Below, piece by piece: positions 1,651 to 17,206 of a DNA stretch of 34,212 nt. Source of the stretch: Nitrospirota bacterium (GTDB taxonomy: Bacteria; Nitrospirota; Thermodesulfovibrionia; Thermodesulfovibrionales; UBA6898); NCBI GenBank assembly GCA_024275975.1, contig JAJRYC010000094.1:1-34212 (forward strand), given 5' to 3'. The notes beneath the pieces were generated by a model. That model did not search any database. It was not told the origin of the DNA and worked only from the letters and a program-made list of their open reading frames with translations. The position numbers were made by a program, and so were the translations under genes. Position 1 is the first letter of the stretch; the number at the start of each line of letters is the position of its first letter.

Positions 1651-1685
1651 TGATATAATTCTACAAATCGGTTAATCGTGATTAA
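1651..1685 (+). promoter_or_regulatory. Extended -10 promoter and operator-like palindrome of the TIGR04255/HicA-like operon
   Basis: TGATATAAT at 1651-1659 is an extended -10 element (TG, one base, TATAAT), with no good -35. The predicted RNA start is near 1666. Just after it lies TTAATC-GT-GATTAA (1672-1685), an inverted repeat at the place where an autorepressor of a toxin-antitoxin operon would bind. The first gene starts with GTG at 1698, preceded by AGGGGC. Promoter function is inferred from sequence only. Confidence 0.5.
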
Positions 1686-1697
1686 TAGGGGCAGACC

Positions 1698-2414
1698 GTG
1701 TCTAAAAAAATAGAATCCGAAATATATCCTAATTCGCCACTTATTGAGGTTATTTTTGAAATCAAATTTCCTGGGGAACCTGTTGTGGAGTGCAGAAGGG
1801 ATATTTTTTATGAATTGGTGAGAGGAGATTATCCCAAGGTTTTAGTTCCTTCTACTAAAGAAGGTAGTTTTGTTGCACTTGAGCCGTACCGGTTTGAAAA
1901 AGAGGACGGTTCTTCTGGAGTTATGCTGGCAATTAATAAACTTTCTTATTACAGCCGCAAGTACCCGGGATTTAAAAATTTTAGAAAAGAATCGTTAAGT
2001 TTAATCAGCAAATTCAGGAAAGCTTATCCAAAGATTAATAAGTTAAGCAGAACCGGCTTCAGATATGTGAATATTATTCCGTTTACGAGAGAAGAAGGGT
2101 TGATACCAATAGAGAATTTTTTAAATGTCGGCCTCAAAATGCCGGGTGTAATACCTGAGAAGTACAATAATATTAGTATCGGCTTTGTGGTGGATAGCGA
2201 CGGAGGATCGGTTACGACCCGTATTGAAACTATGACAACTGCTGACCAAACTGGTGAAGCAATGCTTCTGGATATTGATTATGCCAAGGAACGCAACCTT
2301 GCAATTGGGTCCGTGAGTAAATATATTGATGAAAGTCATAAATGTGCAAGGCAGTTGTTTGAAGATTTGATTACCGGCAATTACAGAATGTTTTTGAGAG
2401 GAGAAACTTTATGA
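1698..2414 (+). CDS. TIGR04255-like family protein
   Basis: This 238-residue soluble protein begins 'PNSPLIEVIFEIKFPGE' after a short leader, the hallmark opening of the sporadically distributed TIGR04255 family, whose function is unknown. Later landmarks are 'TGFRYVNIIPF' (about residues 118-128) and a charged C-terminal helix with 'ARQLFEDLITG'. The start is GTG with AGGGGC about six bases upstream; no better start is seen. Its ATGA end overlaps the next start by four bases, so translation is coupled to the HicB-like gene. Such sporadic genes often travel with mobile or defence loci, which fits the neighbouring restriction remnant. The name rests on recall of the family's opening motif, without a profile search. 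Confidence 0.65.
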   Translation: MSKKIESEIYPNSPLIEVIFEIKFPGEPVVECRRDIFYELVRGDYPKVLVPSTKEGSFVALEPYRFEKEDGSSGVMLAINKLSYYSRKYPGFKNFRKESLSLISKFRKAYPKINKLSRTGFRYVNIIPFTREEGLIPIENFLNVGLKMPGVIPEKYNNISIGFVVDSDGGSVTTRIETMTTADQTGEAMLLDIDYAKERNLAIGSVSKYIDESHKCARQLFEDLITGNYRMFLRGETL

Positions 2415-2809
2415 CAACGGCAACAAGAGAATCTGTTTCTGCTTTTGATCCTGTATTGCCCTTTCCTGTTGAAACAGGCAAAGGGAGAATAACGGATGAA
2501 GATTTTCAGAAATTTATGGCGCCTGGATATTCAACTCCTCTGTGGTCAATACCAACCAAAAGGAAAAAATATAAAGTTTCGAAACCAATAAAGGTGCATA
2601 TATATATTGAAGATAATTTCTATTTTGTGGAAAATGAGACCCTTGTTATAGTTGGTATGGGGGAGTCTATCACAGATGCTATTGATGATTTTGGAAAGCA
2701 GGTTATTCATTTCTATAAATACTATAAGAAACTGTCGTGGGACAGGGTGACAGGGGATGCCGAACGCTTAAAGGGGCTTTACGAAACTCTCCTTGTTGAT
2801 CGAGATTAA
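2411..2809 (+). CDS. HicB-like putative antitoxin
   Basis: This 132-residue protein has a loosely structured first 60 residues followed by strand, strand, helix: 'KVHIYIEDNFYFV', 'ETLVIVGMGESITDAI', then 'DDFGKQVIHFYKYY'. That pattern (two strands, a Gly-x-Gly turn, then 'T.EAi..F' and a helix) is like the partly degraded RNase H fold of HicB antitoxins. It overlaps the TIGR04255-like gene by four bases and ends two bases before the HicA-like gene. The placement upstream of a HicA-like protein is the main support for an antitoxin role. No DNA-binding domain is obvious at the C-terminus. It could instead be an uncharacterised partner of the TIGR04255-like protein. Confidence 0.5.
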   Translation: MTTATRESVSAFDPVLPFPVETGKGRITDEDFQKFMAPGYSTPLWSIPTKRKKYKVSKPIKVHIYIEDNFYFVENETLVIVGMGESITDAIDDFGKQVIHFYKYYKKLSWDRVTGDAERLKGLYETLLVDRD

Positions 2810-2811
2810 CA

Positions 2812-3096
2812 GTGTCGATAGACAGAAAAACCATCGAATCCTCATTACGCAAAAAAGGCTTTATTGAAGAAGGCGGAGATCATAAGTACTTCTATCACGA
2901 AGTAAACGGAAAACGGACCGGCTCTTATACCTTTACGTCTCGTGGAAGCGGATATAAGACATACGGAGATACCCTGCTAAAGCGAATGCGGTTTCAATTA
3001 CGGTTGGATTCATTGACTCAGGTAAAACGTCTGCTTGAATGTCCGATGGACATGGATGAATATAATTCAATCCTAAGAGAAAAAGGCATTTTTTAA
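2812..3096 (+). CDS. HicA-like putative mRNA-interferase toxin
   Basis: This 94-residue basic protein has the pattern 'SSLRKKGFIEEGGDHKYF', in which Gly-Phe is followed by Gly-Asp-His. In HicA toxins a Gly-Ser-His-His segment at the matching place carries the catalytic His of a dsRBD-like fold; here His24 would be the counterpart. A middle part rich in Thr, Ser and Gly ('YTFTSRGSGYKTYGD') and a helix 'LLKRMRFQLRLDS' follow. It is longer than classical HicA (about 60 residues). It starts at GTG, two bases after the stop of the HicB-like gene, so the pair is translationally coupled. The toxin call rests on the weak motif and on gene order. Confidence 0.5.
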   Translation: MSIDRKTIESSLRKKGFIEEGGDHKYFYHEVNGKRTGSYTFTSRGSGYKTYGDTLLKRMRFQLRLDSLTQVKRLLECPMDMDEYNSILREKGIF

Positions 3097-3111: not shown

Positions 3112-3250
3112 TTAGCTCCTACCAAATGCATTATAGCGGCCAACCTTCCGAATTTCCATCCAGTTGTCTTTCCGCCTTGTAATGTCAAAAAGAATTTGCC
3201 AATCTTCCGCATCAGGTGGAAACACTGTAGATTTAATCAGATGATTTATT
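3112..3250 (-). pseudogene. Minus-strand gene remnant of unknown family
   Basis: On the minus strand an open stretch of about 45 codons ends at a TAA (3114-3112) and contains 'PDAEDWQILFDITRRK' followed by 'NWMEIRKVGRYNAFG'. The composition looks protein-like, but no start or upstream part remains: the frame hits a stop where the prenyltransferase-like fragment begins. I read it as the 3' end of a gene cut off by the recombination that brought in the downstream cassettes. The family is unrecognised. Confidence 0.35.
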
Positions 3251-3251
3251 C

Positions 3252-3401
3252 GATTATGAAGTCAACAACCTCGATACCACCCTTGCCCTCCAGGCCCTGA
3301 AGGCAGTTGGCCACGATGACCTTGAAACAATCGGGTATGCATTGGCTTATCTCCTCTCCACCCGGAATGATGACGGAGGATGGGGAACAACATTGGCATA
3401 A
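3252..3401 (+). pseudogene. Fragment of a prenyltransferase/squalene-cyclase-repeat surface protein gene
   Basis: An open frame of about 49 codons reads 'NNLDTTLALQALKAVGHDD' and 'AYLLSTRNDDGGWG' and then stops. It matches the gene at 12161 (around 12570-12690) almost base for base in its middle, including the 'GCCCTGAAGGCAGTTGGCC' stretch. The QW-like 'DGGWG' motif is that of squalene-cyclase/prenyltransferase repeats. It has neither start nor signal peptide and ends where the repeated cassette begins (3404), so it is the stump of an older copy of that surface protein gene. Confidence 0.8.
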
Positions 3402-3403
3402 AA

Positions 3404-4260
3404 CGATTTTTAAAGAGTGAAATGATATCGTTCCCGACTATAAGCTTAATCTGTAGATAACATCATAGATTTGAACATATGAAAAGCTAAAAATAAAAAT
3501 AGAGCTTGACAAAAAGAGAAATATTATTTATTTTTACCCATTACTTCTTTCCCAGGAGGGGGAATCAATGCAATCCACAAACAATTTCAGATTCAGAACA
3601 ATATCTGTGATAGTACTTGCATTCTACCTGTGGACATTCGGCGGAATATTTGAGCTTGCATATGCGTTTAAGACCAGCTCAGACAAAGCACAGCGGATGG
3701 AATTAGGGAAACAGAAAGAACAGGGGCCTGGGGAAAGATTAAATAAAGCGATAGAAGACATAGAACAGATAATCCAGGCAGTAGAGACCGTCCGGACAGT
3801 CGAAGAAAAAAGGGCGGGAAAAGAGAGACTGAAGACAAAAGAGCTTGAGATTGAGGCTCTTGATAAAGAGATAAGGAAGCAGTTTTCAGAGACGGAAACA
3901 AAAATCAAAGACCTTCCAGAAGCAATAAAACAACGCCACAGGGATTTTGTTAAAAAATATGAAGAAAACCTCAAAGAACTGAAGAACAATCTTGAAGCGA
4001 TAAAAAAGCATGACATAGGAAGCAGGGAATTTGACGAAGCAGTAAAAAAGACAAAAGCGCATCTCGAAAAAGTAAAACCCAGGAAGAAGCACATCCCATT
4101 AGACCCGAACAAACTGCCCCACAGGACAGCCGAGCCGACAAAAAAGAAGCCGAGGCTGAGGCCGGAGCAGTTCAGCATAGAGCATAGCACAGAGGGCATA
4201 GCGCAGAGACATGAACCAATCCTTGTTGCATCAAATGGATCGTTGAATGGGTTATTAAGC
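3404..4260 (+). repeat. Long direct repeat, copy 1 (promoter plus first 231 codons)
   Basis: From CGATTTTTAAAGAGTG at 3404 through the promoter, start codon and first part of the gene at 3568, the sequence is nearly identical to 7425-8324. Similarity drops sharply after codon 231, with one shared patch at the 'GLLLAAADPP' segment. The left edge in both copies abuts a broken prenyltransferase-type gene, so it marks the end of the duplicated cassette. Confidence 0.85.
3506..3534 (+). promoter_or_regulatory. Promoter of the first large exported protein
   Basis: TTGACA at 3506-3511 is a consensus -35, followed after 17 bases by TATTTT at 3529-3534 as -10. The gene start at 3568 has a strong ribosome site, AGGAGGGGG, six bases upstream. 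The same arrangement is kept in the second copy at 7527-7555. Confidence 0.65.
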
Positions 4261-6693
4261 CGGAACCCAGAACTCGCAACCATGAACCTTTATGAGCTAT
4301 CCGATATTAGTAGCCAGTTTCTTCCTGCTTCAACTACAAACTCAGAACAAACAACCTCGAACACGTTCGACAAGCTCAGTGCAGGCTTGCTGCTTGCAGC
4401 AGCCGACCCGCCCACGGATGCCGACCTGGCGGAAACGATAGAAGTTCAGTTCACGGAAGCAATAAGGGCAAAAGCAGAGGAGCTTGAGAATAAACCTGTA
4501 AAAATATACAACTGGGTAAGGAACAACATAGAATTTGTACCCACCTATGGTTCCATTCAGGGCGCAGACATGTGCCTTCAGACAAAACAGTGTAATGACT
4601 TTGACACGGCATCACTACTCATCGCTCTACTCAGAGTCTCAGGCATACACGCCAGATATATTGAAGGGACAGTTGAAATCCCTATAGAAAAAGTAATGAA
4701 CTGGGCAGGAGGGTTTACAGATGCCAATGCTGCAATTGATTTCATAGCAAGTGGAGGAGTGCCGGTAGCTACTGACACATCAGGTGGGAAGATAGAAAAA
4801 GCACAAATGGAACATATGTGGGTAGAGGCCTGGATTGATTATATTCCATCAAGGGGAGCAAGACACAGGAACGGGCAGGGAGATACATGGATAAGGCTTG
4901 ACGCGAGTTTTAAGCAGTACAACTATACAGAGGGAATGGATATCAAAACAGCGGTGCCCTTTGATGCAGAATCCTTCATAGAGCAGATAACTGCTACAGC
5001 AACCATTAATGAAGAAGAAGGTTATGTAACAGGAGTAGATTCATTATTTATAAGTCAGACAATGGAAGATTATCAGACACAGGTAGAAAATTACATCACG
5101 GACAACTATCCTGAGGCAACAGTCGGGGATGTGCTTGGCAAGAAGGAGATAATCAAACAGGAATTCCGTTATCTGCTTGGAACACTGCCTTACCGGGTGG
5201 TAGTGACAGGGCAGAAGAGTGCGGAGATGGCTGACAGCTTGAGGCACAGGATAAGGTTCAAGCTGATGAAGGATACATATGATGATTTTTCAGATACTTT
5301 TATGGATATCACAAAGAACCTTCCTGAGATAGCGGGAAAGAAGATAACCCTGAGCTATGCACCTGCAACAGAGGCGGATGAAGCAATAATCAACTTATAT
5401 CTGCCGGAGCCGAATGAAGACGGCACACCAATAGACCCGTCTGAACTGCCGACAACACTGCCTGCGTATATTATCAATGTCATACCGGAGTTGAGGGTGG
5501 ATGGAGAAGTTATAGCCAAAGGTACGGTGGTGGGTCTTGGAGTGACAGAGTCATTCAGGATGACCTTCAGTGCACCGAACGAACCGCCTGATGTACTGTC
5601 AAGCGTGATAACAGCAGGGGAATATTATGCAATAGCCATTGATACGGGCCGCATATCAGAGGCACAGATGACAGAACTCAAGTCAAAGCTTGAAGATACA
5701 AAGGCAAAACTTGAGGCACAGGATTTTACAGGACTTACAAAAGACGATATAGTGGGAGACTTGCTCTATACAACAGTATTGAGCTACTTTGCAGAATTTG
5801 ATGTTATGGACTATGTTACAGCAAAGACAATGGGTGTATCGTTAACGAAACTGCCCTCAACAGGAAGGTTTTTTATGGGACTAAATGTGACCTGGCTTTT
5901 TGAAGTTCCTCTAAATGTATCGGCAGGTGGGCTAATGATGGATATAGGATTGATAAAAACAGTGCCAATTGCTCTTGATGGAGACAATAACAGGAAGCTT
6001 CAATTTATGCTCTCATCCGGCATGAACTCATCTGCACTGGAGCACTCAGTTCCAGAGCAACTATTTTCAACTCCTGAGAACCCGGCAGAGGGTATATCAG
6101 CAGTAAAGGCATTACAGATAGCCAATGATCAGGGGATACCGATATATACAGTTAACCAGACAAACATAGATGCAATTCTTCCTCAGTTGCAGGTTGACTA
6201 TGATGTAAAAGTTGACATACAAAACGCAGTGAATGCAGGAATGGTTGCTACTGTTTCAAAGACGAACATCTCCTTCACCGGTTGGACCGGAGCAGGATAT
6301 ATCATAATCAATCCTGATACAGGTGCTGGGGCGTATATGATTAGTGGGGGGTTGAGGGGTGGGCTTTTGATTGGCTCAGTATTTCTACTTATTGCAGGTC
6401 TATTCCTATCTCTATCAATATTACTTTTTCCGATAGGCCTTGTAGCTCTACCAGTATTTATAGCTCTTCTAACTTTATTCTATGTAAATGTGCTTATATC
6501 ATTGGTTTTTCTCTATGGGGTCGATACAGCAAGGAATTTTGGCCATTGTATGTGGGGAAATGCTGGGGCAGGTTCCACAGTGTTACAACAGGTATCGCGA
6601 ATAAAAGAGTTATTAAGTCAAATTGTTAGTATAGTGCTAGTTATTCGGAATATTATATCTTTTGGTGAATGTATTGCCGATGAACTATATTAA
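3568..6693 (+). CDS. Exported transglutaminase-fold protein with membrane-spanning C-terminus (polymorphic toxin-like)
   Basis: This 1041-residue protein begins with a Sec signal peptide ending 'FELAYA' (about 1-33). A charged coiled coil follows (35-185), then a short repeat-rich linker (231-275). The transglutaminase-like core (about 290-450) has 'LLIALLRVSGIHARY', His416 in 'MEHMW' and Asp445 in 'WIRLDASF'. Where the catalytic Cys belongs (four before the Ala of 'DTASLL') there is Asp344; Cys342 is nearby but is Gly in the sister protein. A long beta-rich part leads to 'GAGYIIINPDTGAGAYM' (about 908-925). After it comes a unique tail with two or three hydrophobic spans (932-990) and a polar end. 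The small membrane gene at 6711 follows by 17 bases. Constant front and variable tail suggest a secreted effector with a membrane-active end; that function is inference. Confidence 0.75.
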   Translation: MQSTNNFRFRTISVIVLAFYLWTFGGIFELAYAFKTSSDKAQRMELGKQKEQGPGERLNKAIEDIEQIIQAVETVRTVEEKRAGKERLKTKELEIEALDKEIRKQFSETETKIKDLPEAIKQRHRDFVKKYEENLKELKNNLEAIKKHDIGSREFDEAVKKTKAHLEKVKPRKKHIPLDPNKLPHRTAEPTKKKPRLRPEQFSIEHSTEGIAQRHEPILVASNGSLNGLLSRNPELATMNLYELSDISSQFLPASTTNSEQTTSNTFDKLSAGLLLAAADPPTDADLAETIEVQFTEAIRAKAEELENKPVKIYNWVRNNIEFVPTYGSIQGADMCLQTKQCNDFDTASLLIALLRVSGIHARYIEGTVEIPIEKVMNWAGGFTDANAAIDFIASGGVPVATDTSGGKIEKAQMEHMWVEAWIDYIPSRGARHRNGQGDTWIRLDASFKQYNYTEGMDIKTAVPFDAESFIEQITATATINEEEGYVTGVDSLFISQTMEDYQTQVENYITDNYPEATVGDVLGKKEIIKQEFRYLLGTLPYRVVVTGQKSAEMADSLRHRIRFKLMKDTYDDFSDTFMDITKNLPEIAGKKITLSYAPATEADEAIINLYLPEPNEDGTPIDPSELPTTLPAYIINVIPELRVDGEVIAKGTVVGLGVTESFRMTFSAPNEPPDVLSSVITAGEYYAIAIDTGRISEAQMTELKSKLEDTKAKLEAQDFTGLTKDDIVGDLLYTTVLSYFAEFDVMDYVTAKTMGVSLTKLPSTGRFFMGLNVTWLFEVPLNVSAGGLMMDIGLIKTVPIALDGDNNRKLQFMLSSGMNSSALEHSVPEQLFSTPENPAEGISAVKALQIANDQGIPIYTVNQTNIDAILPQLQVDYDVKVDIQNAVNAGMVATVSKTNISFTGWTGAGYIIINPDTGAGAYMISGGLRGGLLIGSVFLLIAGLFLSLSILLFPIGLVALPVFIALLTLFYVNVLISLVFLYGVDTARNFGHCMWGNAGAGSTVLQQVSRIKELLSQIVSIVLVIRNIISFGECIADELY
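4261..4380 (+). repeat. Repeat-derived linker inside the first large gene
   Basis: Between the conserved 'GLLS' and 'GLLLAAADPP' segments this copy carries text unlike the sister gene. It includes GTTCGACAAGCTCAG at 4365-4379, a sequence I know as part of a dispersed bacterial palindromic repeat. The sister gene has a different repeat at the same point (8344-8386). The frame remains open through it. Confidence 0.5.
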
Positions 6694-7441: not shown

Positions 7442-8324
7442 AATGATATTGTTCCCGACTATAAACTTAATCTGTAGATAACATCATAGATTTGAACATA
7501 TGAAAAGCTAAAAATAAAAATAGAGCTTGACAAAAAGAAAAATATTATTTATTTTTAAGTACTTTTATTTATTCCCGGGAGGGGAATCAATGCAATCCAT
7601 AAACAATAGTAGATTCAGAATAATATCCGTGATAGTGCTCGCATTCTACCTGTGGACATTCGGTGGAATATTCGAGCTTGCGTATGCGTTTAAAACCAGC
7701 TCAGACAAAGCACAGCGGACGGAATTAGGGAAACAGAAAGAACAGGGGCCTGGGGAAAGATTAAATAAAGCGATAGAAGAGATAGAACAGATAATTCAGG
7801 CAGTACAGACCGTCCAGACAGTCGAAGAAAAAAGGGCGGGAAAAGAGAGACTGCAGACAAAAGAACTTGAGATAGAGGCTCTTGATAAAGAGATAAGGAA
7901 GCAGTTTTCAGAGACGGAAACAAGAATCAAAGACCTTCCTGATATTATCAAGCAGCGGCATAGGGAGTTTGTAAGTAAATATGAAGAAAACCTCAAAGAA
8001 CTGAAGAACAATCTTGAAGCGATAAAAAAGCATGACATTGGAAGCAGGGAATTTGAAGAAGCAGTAAAAAAGACAAAAGCGCATCTCGAAAAAGTAAAAC
8101 CCAGGAAAAGACACATCCCATTAGACCCGAACAAACTGCCCCACAGGACAGCCGAGCCGACAAAAAAGAAGCCGAGACTGAGGCCGGAGCAATTCAGCAT
8201 AGAGCATAGCGCAGAGGGCATAGCACAAAGATTTCAGAGCAAAGAGCATGGCGCAAAGAGCATAACGCAGAGATATGAACCAATCCTTGTTGCATCAAAT
8301 GGATCGTTAACCGGCTTGCTTTCT
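7425..8324 (+). repeat. Long direct repeat, copy 2 (promoter plus N-terminal coding part)
   Basis: This is the second copy of the segment at 3404-4260, with scattered substitutions and an extra 42 bases near 8229-8270 made of 'AAAGAGCATGGCGC'-type units. It covers the end of the truncated gene at 7067, the promoter, and the first 230 or so codons of the gene at 7590. Its high identity, compared with divergent downstream coding sequence, points to recent duplication or gene conversion. Confidence 0.85.
7527..7555 (+). promoter_or_regulatory. Promoter of the second large exported protein
   Basis: TTGACA (7527-7532), a 17-base spacer and TATTTT (7550-7555) copy the promoter at 3506. The TTG that opens the longest reading frame at 7527 is part of this -35 box, so the true start is the ATG at 7590, which has GGGAGGGG just upstream. 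Confidence 0.65.
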
Positions 8325-10868
8325 CCTGCGTCTGAAGACTATGGGCCCCCTCTCCCCCTTGCGGGAGAGGGTTGGGGTGAGGGGGAAACTCCAAACTCAG
8401 AACTATCAACTTCAGGCTTGCTCCTTGCAGCAGCCGACCCGCCCACGGATGCCGACCTGGCAGAAACGATAGAGGTTCAGTTTACAGGTGAGATCAAACA
8501 ATTAGCAGCAGATTTGGAGTACAAACCACTAAGGATATATGAGTTTGTACGAAACAACTTTGAAACCGAGCCTTATTATGGTTCTCTTAAGGGTGCACAA
8601 CAAACACTTCTTGAAAGGGCAGGTAATGATTTTGATCAGGCGAGTCTGCTCATATCATTATTGAGAGCTTCAAATATCCCCGCACGGTATGTATATGGTA
8701 CAGTGGAGATACCCATTGAAAAACTTATGAATTGGGTCGGTGGAGTTACTGACCCCAATACCGCTGCTCAGATAATGGCTACTAATGGAGTCCCCGGTCA
8801 ATTAATTACAGAAGGTGGACAAATAAAGTATGCCCAGATGGAGCATGTGTGGGTTGAGGTATATGTACCTTACGGGAACTATCGAGGTGCACTGCGAGAT
8901 AACAGCATTAAGACATGGATTCCATTAGATCCAAGCTTTAAACAATATGAATACAAAAGAGGAATGGACTTATATACTGCTATGGGGATAAACGGAGAAC
9001 AATACATATATGATTACATTACAGATGACTCGCCATCGCCAATTCCCCCTGAACTTGAAGAATTATTTCCAGATTACACCATCAGTCCATATCAGTATTA
9101 TAGTCAAAAGCTAAAAGCTTATCTTGATGCTAATATCCCCAATTATGACCTTGAAGAAATCTTAGGAGATGTGGAAGGATTTCTCCCAAATAACTTTATA
9201 ATCCCCCAAAATTATCCTTTCTTTCTTGGATCCTTGCCTTATAAAGTCATTATCAAAGGAATAGTTTTCTCATCAATTTCAGATAATCTACGCCATAAAA
9301 TTACCATACAGCTACGTTCACCAGCAACATCATATTCCCTTGAAGAAATAGATTTCACATATAAATTACCCGCCTCTAAATGGATAAATCACAGGATTAC
9401 ACTTTCTTATAAGCCGGCAACTAAAAATGATGAAACACTTGTAAATCAATATGGAGACCTATTAAATGTTCCTCCATATTTAATCAATGTCAAGGCAGCT
9501 TTGAAAATTGATGGAGACGAGGTTGCATCTGGCAATCCAACAGGTCTCGGATATGACCAGATTCTAAATATCACCTTTACTTCTCCAAACCAGAAAAGCG
9601 ATGTAGTTGAGAATGCAATTATTACAGGCACGTATGCCGCCATCACAATAGTGCCAAGCAAAGTAAGAGCTGAATTTTCTGGTAGAGGAATGGAGCAGTT
9701 ATTATCAAACCTTCATCAAGTTCCCTCAGAGAATGTGGACCTTGATGATGTCTTAGGCGAAATGCTCCATAATATCGGACTTACTTATTTTGGACAATTA
9801 TCTTTCCAGGAATCCCTGTATGCTTCTACATTTCAGGTGCTGGTATTTCGACAGCCATCAGAGGCCATAGTAGCTTCAAATGTATCTGTAGAGTACTTAT
9901 TTGATATACCATCTTTAGTTGAGGAAGGAGGGATATCCATTGATGTGGACAGGAATCAATATATTACTATCTCAATAGCTGGAGATGAAACGAGGACTAA
10001 AGATTTCATGATAATATCTGGTATCACTTCATCAGCTTGGGAGAATGAAATACTAGAATTCATGTATGATGTACCATCCGTATCAGCTATTAAATTATTG
10101 AGACTCTCTGCATTACAAGAGATAGCAATTCATACCATAGACAAGGATAATATCAGTCAAACCCTTCCACTTCTTCAAATAAGCCAAACAGTAAAATCTT
10201 CAATACAGAATGCCGTAAATGCCGGGAAAAAGGTTATTGTTCCTCAATCCAATATCCAATACCTTGACTGGTATGGAACAGGATACATAGTTTTAGATCC
10301 TGTAACAGGGGCAGGGGCCTACATGCTTTCAAATGAGCTGTCAGGTGGATGGTCAGGAGCAAAACTGCCAGAATCTTCAAGGGATATAAATGCTCTTTTT
10401 AATAGACTTTGTCCAAATGCTCGTGAGCGAGTATTGCGGATTGCTTCGGGATATTTAGGTACGCCATATGTAGATGGCGGTAAGGTTCTTGATGCTGAAT
10501 GTTCTAAGGGCGGGTTTGATTGTTCAGGGTTAGTAGGGTGGGTGTATAAATTAGCAGGATATCCTCAAATATTCTGGAATCCAGATCCAAGATATTCAGA
10601 TAAGCAATGTTTTGGTGTGAATGCCGAAACGCAATATACATTGACTAAACACACAGATTATCCTCTTATTGCTGATTTAGTATTTTTCTCACACACTGAT
10701 AGTCCGGAGGGAATTGGTCATGTTGGGATTATTATCGCAAAAGACATGATGATTGATGCATTTAGCACAGAAAGCCCTATTAGCTTTGAGCCATTTTCAG
10801 CAGTAAGGTGGTGGCGGGTAAAGTATTTTTTTGGATATTTAATTGAGTCATGCAATACAAATGAATGA
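7590..10868 (+). CDS. Exported transglutaminase-fold protein with C-terminal NlpC/P60 domain (polymorphic toxin-like)
   Basis: This 1092-residue protein shares with the gene at 3568 the signal peptide, coiled coil, transglutaminase-like core and 'GYIVLDPVTGAGAYM' motif (about 896-912). In the core, 'GNDFDQASLL' has Asp347 where active enzymes have Cys; His419 and Asp447 are in place. The unique C-terminus (about 950-1092) is an NlpC/P60 cysteine hydrolase: 'YLGTPYVDGG', then Cys978 in 'FDCSGLV', His1044 in 'GHVGII' and a polar third residue around Asp1056. NlpC/P60 enzymes cut peptide bonds in murein stems, though some act on other amides. A promoter and strong ribosome site precede the ATG. 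The following gene (10896) is 27 bases on. Toxin function is inferred from the constant-front, variable-tail design; a cell-wall remodelling role is the main alternative. Confidence 0.8.
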   Translation: MQSINNSRFRIISVIVLAFYLWTFGGIFELAYAFKTSSDKAQRTELGKQKEQGPGERLNKAIEEIEQIIQAVQTVQTVEEKRAGKERLQTKELEIEALDKEIRKQFSETETRIKDLPDIIKQRHREFVSKYEENLKELKNNLEAIKKHDIGSREFEEAVKKTKAHLEKVKPRKRHIPLDPNKLPHRTAEPTKKKPRLRPEQFSIEHSAEGIAQRFQSKEHGAKSITQRYEPILVASNGSLTGLLSPASEDYGPPLPLAGEGWGEGETPNSELSTSGLLLAAADPPTDADLAETIEVQFTGEIKQLAADLEYKPLRIYEFVRNNFETEPYYGSLKGAQQTLLERAGNDFDQASLLISLLRASNIPARYVYGTVEIPIEKLMNWVGGVTDPNTAAQIMATNGVPGQLITEGGQIKYAQMEHVWVEVYVPYGNYRGALRDNSIKTWIPLDPSFKQYEYKRGMDLYTAMGINGEQYIYDYITDDSPSPIPPELEELFPDYTISPYQYYSQKLKAYLDANIPNYDLEEILGDVEGFLPNNFIIPQNYPFFLGSLPYKVIIKGIVFSSISDNLRHKITIQLRSPATSYSLEEIDFTYKLPASKWINHRITLSYKPATKNDETLVNQYGDLLNVPPYLINVKAALKIDGDEVASGNPTGLGYDQILNITFTSPNQKSDVVENAIITGTYAAITIVPSKVRAEFSGRGMEQLLSNLHQVPSENVDLDDVLGEMLHNIGLTYFGQLSFQESLYASTFQVLVFRQPSEAIVASNVSVEYLFDIPSLVEEGGISIDVDRNQYITISIAGDETRTKDFMIISGITSSAWENEILEFMYDVPSVSAIKLLRLSALQEIAIHTIDKDNISQTLPLLQISQTVKSSIQNAVNAGKKVIVPQSNIQYLDWYGTGYIVLDPVTGAGAYMLSNELSGGWSGAKLPESSRDINALFNRLCPNARERVLRIASGYLGTPYVDGGKVLDAECSKGGFDCSGLVGWVYKLAGYPQIFWNPDPRYSDKQCFGVNAETQYTLTKHTDYPLIADLVFFSHTDSPEGIGHVGIIIAKDMMIDAFSTESPISFEPFSAVRWWRVKYFFGYLIESCNTNE
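8344..8386 (+). repeat. Dispersed palindromic repeat inserted in frame in a coding sequence
   Basis: CCCTCTCCC (8348-8356) and GGGAGAGGG (8363-8371) form a 9-bp stem with a six-base loop, followed by TTGGGGTGAGGGGG. This C/G-rich hairpin is a widespread intergenic repeat that gives peptides such as 'LPLAGEGWGEG' when translated. Here it lies inside the gene at 7590, keeps the frame, and is absent from the sister gene. Confidence 0.8.
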
Positions 10869-10895
10869 TAGATGTATAGATGGAGGAAGATAAAT

Positions 10896-12158
10896 ATGTA
10901 TTTTAAGAAAAATTTTATACGATTATTTTTAATAATTACCGTTTACTTGAATATCTTACTACCAACTTCTTTATTTGCAAATGACACAATGGTTGGTGAA
11001 AGCGGCCATACAGTATTTCCAATAAACACTGACAAGATACGGATGGTATCAGAAAAGGTTACAGTGAAGATGGGACCTGATGGTTCTGGAATATTTGACC
11101 GAAAAGCATTTGTGACGTGTGAGTTTTTGTTTGAGAATACATCACAGGAAGAGATTAAAGCCAAGCTTGGATTTCCCACAAACGAAGTCTGGTCTGACTA
11201 TCAATATCTAAATGACTTTGTTTCTTATATTGATGGTGTGAACAAAGATGTTCAAATAAAGAAAGAAATACTGGGGCGAAAAATAATCAGCGTCCCATCT
11301 GGGGAAATAATAACAGGGGATTACCAAAACCGGAGCCCTTCGACGTATAAAATAATAGAAAATTATAGGAACTGGTATACATGGGATGTAACCTTCCCAC
11401 CACTAAAGAAAATTAAGGTTAAAAATAGCTATTGGGTAACACTTTCTTCTGATCAGCATGTCTATTTTTTTGAATACATATTGACCACTGGTGTAAATTG
11501 GAAAGGTTCAATCGGGAAGGCAGAGATAGAGGTAATCTATAAAGATGCCCATGATTTAAGAAACAGGGTTATTTATGTAAGTCCAAAAACCTATAAAGTG
11601 GAAGATAATAAAATAAAATGGAGATTTACAAATTTTCAGCCAAAAGAGAATATTAAGATTATTGAAAAAACGTTGTGGAAACAATTCATTTTCACACGTT
11701 ATATCATGTATGACATATTAAATTCAAGAGAATACGAAGGTGGATCAAGATACTACACACAAGAAGATTTAGACATAAAAAATGTTGAAGAACACAAAGA
11801 ACTAAATCGCCTTTTAAATGAAATTGATTCTCGTGAGTACTTATTAGATAGTATGCGCTACTCCAATGGATTATTCTCCATGGAGAATAAACCATTGGAA
11901 GAACCAAAAGAATTATATTTTTTAACGAGGGATGCATTTTTAGAGGAAATGAATCAGTTGTATGTCAGAGTCTTAAGAAATGAAATATTTGCAAGGCATG
12001 GAAAAACTTTTAAATCAGAGGATTTAAAGTGGATTTTTAAAGATATAAGTTGGTATAAACCTGATCCTGATTTTTCATACGATATGCTCAATAAGATCGA
12101 AAAAAAGAATTTAGAGTTTATCATTGAGTACGAAAAGAAGAAAGGTTGGAGAAAATAG
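10896..12158 (+). CDS. Exported protein with DUF4424-like and YARHG domains; candidate immunity or cell-wall protein
   Basis: The ATG at 10896 is preferred over the one at 10872 because GGAGG lies nine bases before it and the product then opens with a clean signal peptide ending 'LFAN' (about 1-26). The 420-residue protein has a beta-rich middle with 'FEYILTTGVNWKGSIGKAEI' (about 190-215), like DUF4424 proteins. It ends in a YARHG domain (about 358-412): 'LRNEIFARHGKTF', then 'SWYKPDPDF'. YARHG domains are extracytoplasmic and are thought to bind cell-wall material. Placement directly after the NlpC/P60 protein, in the slot where the first module has a small membrane protein, makes a periplasmic immunity role possible. 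Its stop overlaps the upstream end of the next frame. Confidence 0.7.
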   Translation: MYFKKNFIRLFLIITVYLNILLPTSLFANDTMVGESGHTVFPINTDKIRMVSEKVTVKMGPDGSGIFDRKAFVTCEFLFENTSQEEIKAKLGFPTNEVWSDYQYLNDFVSYIDGVNKDVQIKKEILGRKIISVPSGEIITGDYQNRSPSTYKIIENYRNWYTWDVTFPPLKKIKVKNSYWVTLSSDQHVYFFEYILTTGVNWKGSIGKAEIEVIYKDAHDLRNRVIYVSPKTYKVEDNKIKWRFTNFQPKENIKIIEKTLWKQFIFTRYIMYDILNSREYEGGSRYYTQEDLDIKNVEEHKELNRLLNEIDSREYLLDSMRYSNGLFSMENKPLEEPKELYFLTRDAFLEEMNQLYVRVLRNEIFARHGKTFKSEDLKWIFKDISWYKPDPDFSYDMLNKIEKKNLEFIIEYEKKKGWRK

Positions 12159-12160
12159 AT

Positions 12161-15100
12161 TTGAAGGTAGATGGACAAATAAAGCAGATATCAATAATTC
12201 TTATAATGCTATCTGCAGTTGTATTCATTACATCTTATTCTTACGCCCAATCTATATCCATTGATAATGGTATTTCCTGGCTTGCTTCGAATCAAAATCC
12301 TGATGGCAGTTGGGGTAGTGATGCTGGCCTCACAGTATTAGATACATCTGCAGTGCTTGATACGCTTGGTTATTTAAATGTAGGCGATGCTGCTTATCCA
12401 AATGGAGTCACATGGCTGAGTTCTCAATCTCCGGTATCAACAGATTTTCTTTCGAGAAAAATAACAAGTCTCTATTTCGCTGGAGATGATATTTCTGATG
12501 ATTTATACACTTTAACTGATATGAAAAATTCAGATGGAGGCTGGGGAGGAGATGCAGATTCAACAAGCATGATAAATGACACTACCCTCGCCATTCAGGC
12601 CCTGAAGGCAGTTGGCCACGATGACCTTGAAACAATCAGCTATGCTTTGGCTTATCTCCTTTCTACCCAGAACGAAGACGGAGGGTCGGGGTTTTACGAG
12701 GGCGATGACAGCAATGTCTATATGACGGCGCTGGTGCTGAAAGTTCTCAGTTCATATAGTTCAATATTCAATATTCAAAGTTCAATAAATAATGCGGTTA
12801 GTTATCTTTTAACAAAGCAGGATACAGATGGAGGTTTTGGCTCAAGTCCCTCTACAGTATATGAAACAGCCCTTGCCTTTGAGGCGCTGGTGGAAAGCGG
12901 GCAGGGACAAGCCCAGCCCCTGCAGGATGCAATAAAATATCTTTATGCAACCCAGCTTCCCAATGGCTCATGGAACGAAGACCCATACTCGACTGCCATG
13001 GCGTTAAAAGCATTAGCCAGAGTAAAACCGAATCTTTCAATATCATCAGAAGATATTATATTTTCAAACCCCACACCTACAGAGGGAGAGACGGTCACAA
13101 TAACAGCCAATATCCACAACACAGGCTCTGCACAGGCAGACAATGTACTAATACAGTTCTATGACGGAGACCCATTGGCAGGAGGGGTTTTAATCGGGGA
13201 GACAACAATGCTGTCAATACCTGCATACAGCAGTTCATTATCAACCACCTCATGGACAATCCCGGATGCAGCAACCCATTTAATTTATTTACAAATAGAC
13301 CCTATGAACGTCATAGACGAGCTGGATGAGACAGACAACACAGCCTCCAGGATCCTCACATCCGCAACCTTACCTGACTTAAGCATAACCCCGGCTGATA
13401 TAGTCTTTGACCCTTTATTCCCGGAACCCGGGGAAACAGTAACAATCACTGCGACGATCAGAAACAGGGGAGAGACAGGGGGGAATAACATAACAGTAGA
13501 TATCTATAATGGAGACCAATCAGCCGGGGGGACATTGATAGGAAATGCAACAGTCTCATCAATAGGACCTGGAAGTGCATCCTTCATTCAACTAACAGGT
13601 AGTTTCACAGCAGGAAGTCACGATATTTATGTAGTGATAGATAGAGCTAATACAATAGCAGAGGGTGATGAGGATAATAATACTGCGATGAAGACCCTCT
13701 CGGTTGGACTTGGAGTTATTGACCTTACTACAACAGGCACAGCTATCACTTTCAGCCCTGCATATCCGGTAGAAGGAGATATCGTTACCATCAATGCAAC
13801 AATATATAACGAGGGTGAGGCAGAGGCAAATAATGTTCTGGTAAGGTTTTATCTTGGAGACCCGGATTCAGGAGGGACTCAGATAGGCCCTGATATATTC
13901 ATACCTGTAATCCAGGCAAGAGACACAGGAAATATAAATACAGTATGGGACAGCACAGGGCATGCCGGCGATAATGACATATATGTAGCAGTTGACCCTC
14001 TTAATACAATCCCGGAGACGAATGAATACAACAACAAGGCATTCAGGACAATCAAAACAGGAGTAAGCGAAGGGCCTGATTTGGAAGTATCACCAGCAGA
14101 TATAAACTACGCCCCTGTAGATCCTGTCACAGGCGATACAGTCACAATAACAGCGAATATAAGAAATATTGGTACAGACGATGTAAGCAATGTCCTTGTA
14201 GAGTTCAGCAATGGAGATCCAAATGTAGGCGGAACATTAATAATAGGCAGTCAGACAATACCATTTATAGCACAGGGAGACTCTGTTAATGTCCAGATAA
14301 CATGGGATACAACCGGATTCTCAGGCACTTATGAAATCTATGTAAATGCTGATCCATTTAATGAAATAGCAGAATTAAACGAAACAAATAATACTGGTCA
14401 TTTACCAATCACAATAACAGCACTGCAGGGACCTGACTTAACCATTTCAGAAATAGACACAACAACCCTTACAACTGATATCCAGACCCTCGAGATTTCA
14501 GGTTCGATAAATGTGACTTTAGAAAATATAGGCAATGAAGATACGGGTTCTGCCTTTGCAGTAACAGTATTTGAAGATAAAGATGGCAATGAAACCTTTG
14601 ATGCAGGCATAGACAATATTCTTGGAGAGACTACTTATTCAAACACTCTTGCACCTCAGGCAACAGATACAATAAACATCACTCTGTCAGGCAAGATTCT
14701 TTTCAGAGACAACATTATCTATGTAATTGTAGACAGCATTGATTCCATACAAGAGCTTGATGAGACAAACAATAAGAGAAACACGGGACAGGAGTGTGAA
14801 TATATACCACCTGTAGGCACATTCAATCCAGTAGAAAAATGGGCATGGACAGAAAGTTCGATCGAGTCTAATTCACTTAATGTCATGATGACTCCGTCCG
14901 TCATCGATTTGAATGGAGACGGCATGCCTGATATAGTTTTTGGCTCGACGTCTTCAAGAAGTGGTGGTTCTGCCCAAGTGGGGATTCTGCGCAGCCTCAA
15001 TGGTGGCGACGGTACCGAGCTTTTCTCTGTGACCGACCCAGACCTCGCCATCAACACAGCCTCTTCTGTTGCCACGGGCGACATCGATCTCGATGGATTT

Positions 15101-17206
15101 CCCGAGATCATTGCCTGTGACAGTACAGGTAAACGGCTGATTGCGTTTGATCACGACGGCACATTCAAGTGGCGGAGCACATTTCTCGAAGCCATCAACT
15201 CGGGAGCACCGAGCTTGGCTGACCTGAATAGTGACGGGAGACCTGAGATCGTGGTTGGTCGCCAGGTTCTGGATAGTGACGGTACACTTCTCTGGACAGG
15301 AACCGGTGGGAGCGGTTCAAGCGGCGTCGGACCAATATCGCTGGTAGCCGATGTGAATCTGGATGGCAGCCCGGAGGTCCTCGCCGGCAACACAGTCTAT
15401 ACCTTGAGTGGCGAGATTCTATGGCAAGCGGACGTTCCCGATGGATACAACGCTGTCGGCAACTTCGACGATGACTTATTCCCCGAGATCGTTCTGGTCA
15501 GTGGTGGACAGGTGTGGCTTCTCGATCATGATGGAACAGTTGCCTGGGGTCCTGTCAGCATCCCTGGTGGTGGAGTCGGTGGCCCCCCGACAGTGGCCGA
15601 CTACGATGGCGACGGAGAGATCGAGATCGGCGTAGCAGGAGCCAGACGGTATGCTGTCTTCGAAACAGATGGTAGCTTAAAATGGTCCACAGTCACACAG
15701 GACCTGAGCTCTAACCGTACAGGTTCCTCGGTCTTCGATTTTGACGGCGACGGCTCGGCTGAGGTTGTCTACAGGGATGAGCTCTATCTTCGGGTCTACA
15801 GAGGTAGCGACGGCAATGTGCTTTTTCAGACCCCAATGAGTTCGTGTACGTGGCGCGAGTATGTACTCGTAGCTGATGTAGATGCTGATAACAATGCGGA
15901 AATCGTGGCTGTTGCCAACAACAATTGTGGCTTTGGACCGCAGCGTGGAGTCTTCGTCTTCGGCGATGCTAACGACAACTGGGTAAACACCCGGAAAATC
16001 TGGAACCAGCATACATACCATATAACCAATGTTAATGATGACGGAACGATTCCAAGGCATGAACAGAACAACCAGGAGATATACAATAACTACAGATGTA
16101 ATTCTCTTCTGCCTGAAGAAGTATTTGGTTCCCCGGATATAACGGTATCCTATATAACAGTTGACCAGACAAATTATCCTGCATCAGTTTCTGTCTCGGC
16201 CAGGATCGGTAATGGCGGCGCTGTGAGTCACCCGGCAGGAGTGGATATTACTTTTTATGATGGAGACCCATCACAGGGAGGAGTCTCTATTGGAACAGCA
16301 AAGACAACAAAAACCCTTCAAAAAGGAGATTATGAAGATGTATCAGTAGTCTTCAACAATCCTACTGCTGGTGTGCATGACATCTATGTAGTGGCGGATG
16401 AAGAGAATAAATTCAATGAATGCAGGGAAGACAATAATATCGCCCTTGCTTCATTTAATCTTGAAGGAGGGATTCAGTCTTCAGAAGAGATGCCGGACCT
16501 GGAAATATCCTCCCCGGACATAACCATAGTCCCGCCTGATACCATTGAAGGCCAGCCGGCGCGAATAACAGCAATCATCCATAATATCGGAACTCTTGGC
16601 GCATCGAATGTGGTTATATCCTTCTATGATGGAGACCCGCAAAACAGTGGCGTCCTCATTGGTTCGATCACAAAATCTTACATTGACGCAGGGGCAACCG
16701 CCCTTGCATCAATAACATGGGATACCTTTGGACAACCAGGGGTAAATTATATCCATGTAATCGTAGACCCCCAGAACTTCATATCTGAATCCAATGAAAA
16801 CAACAACGAGGCAATTATTCCTGTGGATGTTACACCACCATCAAAACCGGATTTAGCCGTAACATCATCTGATATTACATTCTCAAATTTAAACTCTAAA
16901 GAGGGAGAACCACTTACAGTAAGCGCAACCATTCATAACATTGGAATAGAAACAGGTAATATTGAAGTATCACTTTATGACGGAGATCCATCCTCAGGCG
17001 GGATAATATTAGCAGAAAAAACCATTTCACAGCTTATCCAATTTGGAGGAGAAATTACATTAGACTTTGATATAGATACAGTTGGTTTTGCAGGCAGTCA
17101 TGACTTGTATATAAGCATTGATCCGAATAATACAATAGACGAAATTTCAGAGTCTAACAACATTGCATGGAATTCCCTGACAATAGGAGAATCAGGTATT
17201 AATTAA
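12161..17206 (+). CDS. Giant surface protein: prenyltransferase-type repeats, CARDB repeats and FG-GAP propeller (ends at an in-frame TAA)
   Basis: I favour TTG at 12161 (GGAG nine bases upstream) over TTG at 12146, whose only purine run abuts it. The 1681-residue protein has a signal peptide ending 'SYAQ', then squalene-cyclase-like repeats with 'QNPDGSWG', 'NSDGGWGG' and 'DTDGGFG' (about 35-290). Five CARDB adhesion-type beta domains follow (290-880), marked by 'TVTITANI' and 'VLIQFYDGDP'-like strands. Next are about eight FG-GAP/VCBS repeats with calcium-type 'DLNGDGMPDI' loops (905-1285), a 'KIWNQHTYHITNVNDDG' segment, and three more CARDB domains. It should be secreted and extended, probably cell-surface. 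The FG-GAP block is more GC-rich than its flanks. The frame continues open after the TAA at 17204 into the next entry, so the original protein was about 2360 residues. Confidence 0.85.
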   Translation: MKVDGQIKQISIILIMLSAVVFITSYSYAQSISIDNGISWLASNQNPDGSWGSDAGLTVLDTSAVLDTLGYLNVGDAAYPNGVTWLSSQSPVSTDFLSRKITSLYFAGDDISDDLYTLTDMKNSDGGWGGDADSTSMINDTTLAIQALKAVGHDDLETISYALAYLLSTQNEDGGSGFYEGDDSNVYMTALVLKVLSSYSSIFNIQSSINNAVSYLLTKQDTDGGFGSSPSTVYETALAFEALVESGQGQAQPLQDAIKYLYATQLPNGSWNEDPYSTAMALKALARVKPNLSISSEDIIFSNPTPTEGETVTITANIHNTGSAQADNVLIQFYDGDPLAGGVLIGETTMLSIPAYSSSLSTTSWTIPDAATHLIYLQIDPMNVIDELDETDNTASRILTSATLPDLSITPADIVFDPLFPEPGETVTITATIRNRGETGGNNITVDIYNGDQSAGGTLIGNATVSSIGPGSASFIQLTGSFTAGSHDIYVVIDRANTIAEGDEDNNTAMKTLSVGLGVIDLTTTGTAITFSPAYPVEGDIVTINATIYNEGEAEANNVLVRFYLGDPDSGGTQIGPDIFIPVIQARDTGNINTVWDSTGHAGDNDIYVAVDPLNTIPETNEYNNKAFRTIKTGVSEGPDLEVSPADINYAPVDPVTGDTVTITANIRNIGTDDVSNVLVEFSNGDPNVGGTLIIGSQTIPFIAQGDSVNVQITWDTTGFSGTYEIYVNADPFNEIAELNETNNTGHLPITITALQGPDLTISEIDTTTLTTDIQTLEISGSINVTLENIGNEDTGSAFAVTVFEDKDGNETFDAGIDNILGETTYSNTLAPQATDTINITLSGKILFRDNIIYVIVDSIDSIQELDETNNKRNTGQECEYIPPVGTFNPVEKWAWTESSIESNSLNVMMTPSVIDLNGDGMPDIVFGSTSSRSGGSAQVGILRSLNGGDGTELFSVTDPDLAINTASSVATGDIDLDGFPEIIACDSTGKRLIAFDHDGTFKWRSTFLEAINSGAPSLADLNSDGRPEIVVGRQVLDSDGTLLWTGTGGSGSSGVGPISLVADVNLDGSPEVLAGNTVYTLSGEILWQADVPDGYNAVGNFDDDLFPEIVLVSGGQVWLLDHDGTVAWGPVSIPGGGVGGPPTVADYDGDGEIEIGVAGARRYAVFETDGSLKWSTVTQDLSSNRTGSSVFDFDGDGSAEVVYRDELYLRVYRGSDGNVLFQTPMSSCTWREYVLVADVDADNNAEIVAVANNNCGFGPQRGVFVFGDANDNWVNTRKIWNQHTYHITNVNDDGTIPRHEQNNQEIYNNYRCNSLLPEEVFGSPDITVSYITVDQTNYPASVSVSARIGNGGAVSHPAGVDITFYDGDPSQGGVSIGTAKTTKTLQKGDYEDVSVVFNNPTAGVHDIYVVADEENKFNECREDNNIALASFNLEGGIQSSEEMPDLEISSPDITIVPPDTIEGQPARITAIIHNIGTLGASNVVISFYDGDPQNSGVLIGSITKSYIDAGATALASITWDTFGQPGVNYIHVIVDPQNFISESNENNNEAIIPVDVTPPSKPDLAVTSSDITFSNLNSKEGEPLTVSATIHNIGIETGNIEVSLYDGDPSSGGIILAEKTISQLIQFGGEITLDFDIDTVGFAGSHDLYISIDPNNTIDEISESNNIAWNSLTIGESGIN
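17204..17206 (+). other. In-frame nonsense codon splitting the giant surface protein
   Basis: TAA lies in the same frame as the genes on both sides. The 36 codons between it and the next usable start (GTG 17315) are all open and protein-like ('GVSTDKGIYTANEDVQI'). This is a point nonsense change, a read-through site or a sequencing error, not an ordinary gene boundary. Confidence 0.8.

Follow-up and report, generated by a model that had tools for sequence, protein, structure and literature searches.

Organization of the three-gene operon

The window (the whole stretch of DNA that was analysed, 34,212 nucleotides from a Nitrospirota bacterium) carries three genes on the forward strand, designated T, B and A. 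The genes, and the elements to which the text refers, are the following.

1651..1659, + strand: extended -10 element, TGATATAAT; the same 9-mer occurs in relatives
1672..1685, no strand: inverted repeat TTAATC-GT-GATTAA, close to where the RNA should start; may be an operator
1698..2414, + strand: T, TIGR04255 family protein of 238 aa, GTG start; predicted two-repeat TBP-like fold; proposed shared accessory
2411..2809, + strand: B, HicB-like protein of 132 aa, ATG start; candidate antitoxin, upstream of A in all trios
2411..2560, + strand: residues 1-50 of B, N-terminal tail of variable sequence; suggested docking site of T
2561..2734, + strand: residues 51-108 of B, the region aligned with HicB by hhalign
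2812..3096, + strand: A, HicA-like protein of 94 aa, GTG start; candidate RNase toxin
2881..2883, + strand: codon for His24 of A, which is invariant among close relatives (alignment A4) and aligns with the His in the G-S-H motif of HicA; candidate catalytic residue
3040..3093, + strand: residues 77-94 of A, C-terminal extension past the HicA domain; the hhalign alignment ends at residue 76

A preliminary description of this DNA had reported three coupled genes behind an extended -10 promoter and an inverted repeat at the RNA start. The reading frames are arranged as it claimed: T and B overlap by 4 bases via ATGA, and B and A are separated by a gap of 2 bases. The extended -10 element was also recovered, and its 9-mer recurs at about the same distance before T in five related loci (L002, L004, L005, L006 and L127). 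A -35 element was not found upstream of the trio. The inverted repeat exists as well, but it is not conserved: among the relatives only L004 has a palindrome at this site, with a different sequence, and the repeat was therefore rejected as a conserved operator.

Upstream of the trio a gene for a YgjP-like metallopeptidase is located at 685-1398. Between this gene and the trio lies a perfect 25-bp inverted repeat (1416-1467) with 2 nt between its arms, of which a genome search with 18 bases of the arm and at most 2 mismatches revealed no other copies. At the 3' side the trio is followed by a cluster of genes for large proteins (3568-6693, 7527-10868, 10872-12158 and 12146-17206). Two of the encoded proteins have transglutaminase cores (one of them also NlpC/P60), one is a YARHG/DUF4424 protein, and the cluster also includes a CARDB/FG-GAP protein of 1686 aa. 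The stretch at 3250-3400, after the trio, resembles by eye a fragment of the prenyltransferase-like repeat of the 12146-17206 protein and is possibly a remnant copy of it.

Relation of B and A to HicB and HicA, and recurrence of the trio

The score of A against PF07927 (15.1 bits, E 0.025) does not reach the Pfam gathering cut-off of 27 bits, and A is therefore named a HicA-like remote relative and not filed as a member of this family. For B, no family match was obtained with the Pfam, NCBIfam and PADLOC profiles, and a DNA-binding domain was not recognised. Profile-profile comparisons (hhalign) were made with canonical hicA genes from Nitrospirota and the adjacent hicB genes where these were recognised. 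The probabilities were 93.5% for the extended A family against canonical HicA and 93.3% for the extended B family against canonical HicB, whereas the six cross-controls gave at most 0.5%. With the narrow families the values were just 40% for A and 50% for B, so the match of 93% depends on including distant relatives. Judged by these profiles, A is remotely related to HicA and B to HicB, in line with the resemblance to a HicAB pair that the preliminary description had noted. The reversed (hicBA) gene order and the enlarged toxin that it mentioned were found too.

Against PDB sequences the profiles of A and B yielded chance matches only. The AlphaFold model of A shows the order alpha-beta-beta-beta-alpha-alpha but is poor (pLDDT 58.8); in this low-confidence model an extra helix appears at residues 81-90. 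A Foldseek search with the poor model returned HicA (6g26 and 4c26) at ranks 14-21 with E about 2.

The T-B-A trio was found in ten genome records besides the window, in two phyla. Scanning genome contigs with A gave nine loci, and in six of these (L002-L007) T and B were directly upstream; in L003 T is cut by the contig edge, and in L007 A matches over residues 1-70 only, after which the sequence ends. Four further trios came from L087 (genome G035 of the phylum sample) and from L127, L128 and L129, in three genomes sampled from the phylum to which L010, a Desulfobacterales bin, belongs. For the window, L002 and L004, dN/dS was 0.05-0.15 for T, B and A alike; all three genes are under purifying selection. 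The trio is not unique to this genome, and the idea of a stable three-gene operon holds.

Relatives of B and A also occur without T on the Geminocystis plasmid L018, where B has 70 aa and its N-terminal part is missing. In L010 (4235-5281) and L135 (609-1644) a HicB-like/HicA-like pair is preceded by a different first gene of about 110 aa instead of TIGR04255. This alternative first gene resembles DUF3467 by eye, and the pair of L010 sits among type VI secretion-like genes. Lone partial copies of A, with T and B absent, were seen in L008 and L009 5001-5156 and in L015, the last with in-frame stops. Viral scans with B alone or with the T of the window alone gave no matches, nor did a search of phage records with one relative of T as query.

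TIGR04255 as the first gene of many operons

T matches TIGR04255 with 112.1 bits (cut-off 30, E 4e-32) over positions 2-248 of 252, and the genome of the window has one TIGR04255 gene. Sampling of the window's phylum revealed the family in 56 of 295 genomes, and that of the phylum of L010 in 21 of 247; the 14 control genomes lacked it. Neighbourhoods were collected for about 100 T genes, including those on plasmids and IMG/VR contigs. When the 104 T genes with at least 300 bases downstream were counted, 91 were followed by a co-directional reading frame that started between -35 and +25 bases from the T stop, in 47 cases with a 4-base overlap. In most of these operons a third gene came next; it belonged to recognised families (HicA 11, with the window counted; HEPN 7; DUF7689 6; PIN 3; zeta 2) or to families named here (CL1 25; QDCD 19; CL8 13; CL31 2). 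Representatives of PIN, zeta and DUF7689 scored over the Pfam cut-off and HEPN slightly under it, whereas those of CL1, CL8 and QDCD matched nothing in Pfam and nothing meaningful in NCBIfam. The PIN, zeta, HEPN-like and HicA-like folds are all common among toxins, and in one plasmid operon the third gene is annotated as a zeta toxin. The QDCD third genes (for example at 2969-3637 of L056) encode proteins of about 180-330 aa with a motif of the RQGDI...QDCD/SHDCDL type, a candidate new effector. Second and third genes are also mixed: a CL23-type second gene is followed by PIN in L057 and by QDCD in L059 and L067, and an HTH-type second gene by zeta in L082 and by QDCD in L063.

The first gene had been called an orphan, a label that has to be dropped: TIGR04255 stands first in a wide variety of three-gene operons, the majority of which have no HicA relative. 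Counting how often TIGR04255 adjoins the other two genes, as had been recommended, does show a recurrent HicBA trio (11 cases including the window), but TIGR04255 is not the private partner of HicBA. Because the operons are so varied and mostly HicA-free, TIGR04255 has the look of a general accessory and not of a HicBA-specific third part. What is new is that T seems to be an accessory common to exchangeable toxin-like modules, and many toxin systems may have it as their common controller.

To what extent T follows its partners can be read from a quick tree of 101 T proteins, made without bootstrap and with sequences largely from two phyla. On this tree the partner labels required 18 changes versus 66.8 when they were shuffled, which implies that T lineages are tied to partner type. 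The T proteins of the HicA type form a single clade (SH-aLRT 100), and partner exchange was repeated, three times for PIN and twice for zeta. T proteins that have no coupled partner form a group of their own. This lineage comprises L081, L085, L091, L096, L097, L100, L102 and L106, in which no coupled downstream partner of a known kind was seen, and its role may differ.

The AlphaFold model of T, made with 16 sequences, reached a pLDDT of 81.5 and a pTM of 0.79, and its order of strands and helices occurs twice. Foldseek matched the model to the AdoMetDC prozyme (E 1e-5) and TBP (E 6e-4), both with low TM-scores. In VIA-align, guanidino kinases and Mediator Med18/20 scored Z values of 7-8 and TBP slightly less than 7, all in the middling range. 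These models indicate with moderate confidence that T is a TBP-like alpha/beta protein of two repeats. A shared fold by itself shows no function. The T profile did not match any PDB sequence, SecB included, and SecB was absent among the fold matches listed by Foldseek and VIA-align, although absence from such a list is no evidence against a SecB-like fold.

The unrelated second genes have in common a polar N-terminus. In their first 45 residues or so the fraction of S/T/N/Q was 0.262 versus 0.179 in the remainder, and this enrichment was seen in all 11 label groups. It was not seen in the T proteins, the third genes or the control genes (controls about 0.18 versus 0.17). In most groups with at least three members the tail was less conserved than the remainder; the difference in conservation was small in the PIN and QDCD groups, in which the second genes come from more than one family.

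In several loci the T operon was embedded among genes of defence systems. It was situated between HmaA and HmaB in L056, between Mod and Res of a type III system in L050, and next to the type I HsdM-HsdS genes in L060 (in the order HsdM-HsdS - T operon). Downstream of the HicA trio, L003 carries genes for HsdS and a PDC-S06 protein, and L004 one for an HKD+Snf2 helicase. These cases were picked by eye, and a matched comparison of 80 neighbours of 20 T loci with 117 genes of 20 control regions from the same genomes gave no clear excess of defence genes near T; they are therefore anecdotes. Strong defence matches amounted to a few proteins in either set, and T, B and A did not match any model of PADLOC-DB 2.0.0. 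TIGR04255 three-gene operons were also observed on IMG/VR contigs (L114, L115 and L121-L126), several of them beside phage structural- or lysis-like genes. This suggests that they are carried as prophage cargo.

Proposed function and relation to known systems

The preliminary description had suggested a tripartite toxin-antitoxin or defence system. The first of these is the best reading of the data, whereas the case for defence is circumstantial only. We give even chances to the proposal that T, B and A together form a tripartite toxin-antitoxin module, with T as a shared accessory that works with tailed antitoxins. The toxin would be A, a dsRBD ribonuclease of the HicA type that is extended at its C-terminus; B would be its HicB-type antitoxin and T a dedicated accessory acting with B. 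In toxin-antitoxin-chaperone (TAC) modules a C-terminal extension of the antitoxin gives it SecB dependence (Bordes 2016, PMC5105189), and by analogy the tail of the second gene is proposed as the binding site of T. T would attach to the polar tail at the N-terminus of B; in the sister operons its targets would be comparable tails on second-gene proteins of unrelated families. Once bound, it might assist the antitoxin in folding, keep hold of it or shield it, in the manner of the SecB-like chaperones of TAC modules. If T were lost or diverted, for instance during phage infection, the toxin would be set free. The toxicity of A, its neutralisation, the binding of T to the tail and the trigger are what we infer here. 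In its favour are the conservation of the trio under purifying selection, the profile matches of A and B together with the invariant His24, the coupling of T to toxin-like genes in so many loci, the link between T lineage and partner type, the polar tails of the second genes and the operons embedded among defence genes. Several findings go against this reading. A is below the HicA cut-off of Pfam, its AlphaFold model is poor and brings up HicA structures at low ranks, the profile support drops to 40-50% without distant relatives, defence genes were in no clear excess near T, and a T-only lineage without partners exists. T does not match SecB by sequence, and its TBP-like nearest folds could equally mean binding of DNA or of a ligand.

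Preferring a helper of the antitoxin to a sensor or an autoregulator as the function of T is our own choice. As a sensor, T would trigger abortive infection: B and A would be a complete pair, and T would recognise a phage product and then release or activate A. The operons would share their first gene because sensing is common to them, while the effector is exchanged. A common first gene with exchangeable effectors fits this scheme, as do the T operons inside restriction-modification and Hma operons and those on putative viral contigs beside phage structural-like genes (L114, L121-L126). However, the matched comparison was without enrichment of defence genes, and the link between T lineage and partner type fits an interface between the two proteins at least as well as it fits shared sensing. 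We consider a sensor unlikely.

Slightly less probable still is that T is the transcriptional autoregulator of the operon, with a TBP-like saddle that would bind the operator and repress the promoter. That B has no recognised DNA-binding domain, that TBP is among the best Foldseek matches of T, and that the extended -10 element is conserved, with the inverted repeat downstream of it in the window, would all agree with such a role. Yet this repeat is not conserved, a middling Z of about 7 is common also to folds that do not bind DNA, and in some T operons the second gene already codes for an HTH protein. A derivation of B and A from HicB and HicA as non-toxic RNA-binding proteins, for example in a regulatory RNA-binding complex with T, would suit the remote homology and the A-type pairs L135-L138, which are without the histidine position (NGWF or similar versus GDHKYF), but it is improbable given that His24 is retained in the T-associated clade and that PIN, HEPN-like and zeta proteins occur in the sister operons.

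Returning to the tripartite toxin-antitoxin module, part of its organization has been described before. The order hicBA occurs in classes 2 and 5-8 of HicAB systems, a HicA of 95 aa has also been reported, and class 8 combines a HicA of about 95 aa that has two extra C-terminal helices with a HicB of 342-356 aa that has three domains (Gerdes 2024, PMC10865869). As in class 8, hicB precedes hicA in the window, no DNA-binding domain is found and A is of similar size (94 aa), its dsRBD-type order and extra C-terminal helical stretch being seen in the low-confidence model only. Unlike class 8, B has 132 aa and a separate TIGR04255 gene comes first; a third gene of this type is present in none of the 14 published classes (PMC10865869). 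In L131 a relative of A lies behind a protein of 353 aa, a size that fits class 8, and this locus looks like a class 8 hicBA pair.

The hyperpromiscuous antitoxins of Panacea (PanAT, PMC8832971) resemble T in that one conserved family is combined with many unrelated toxins. Panacea is a domain of the antitoxin, whereas T forms a third protein apart, which has a fold of its own and is encoded before the antitoxin-like gene. In the open-access literature no paper was found on the function or operon context of TIGR04255, nor on such three-part systems under other names. Among papers on HicA, TAC and other tripartite systems, no title or abstract describes the T-B-A trio.

A parallel is also offered by TAC, which likewise consists of three genes, with one accessory family serving several unrelated toxin-antitoxin families, HicAB included, and with antitoxins that bear a variable extension (PMC5105189). 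The systems differ in that the accessory is TIGR04255, by sequence not SecB, and is the first gene, ahead of B and A. Moreover, the variable polar extension is N-terminal, whereas that of TAC is C-terminal, and a chaperone role is for T a proposal. A tentative generalization, which we hold to be possible though rather doubtful, is that TIGR04255 is an antitoxin-handling hub with a TBP fold, unrelated to SecB, that would recognise polar N-terminal tails across HicA, PIN, HEPN, zeta and undescribed effectors. It would then represent a second, independent class of toxin-antitoxin-chaperone systems, and the unnamed third genes would be new toxin families. TIGR04255 occurs in many genomes without an assigned function, and its position at the head of three-gene operons that often end in a gene for a known toxin fold gives it a testable role. 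At least four uncharacterised families (CL1, CL8, CL31 and QDCD) are flagged as likely effectors, and TIGR04255 neighbourhoods could, if the reading is true, serve as a handle for new toxin and defence systems. If T does serve unrelated antitoxins via their tails, evolution would have found in it a second solution to the problem that SecB solves in TAC.
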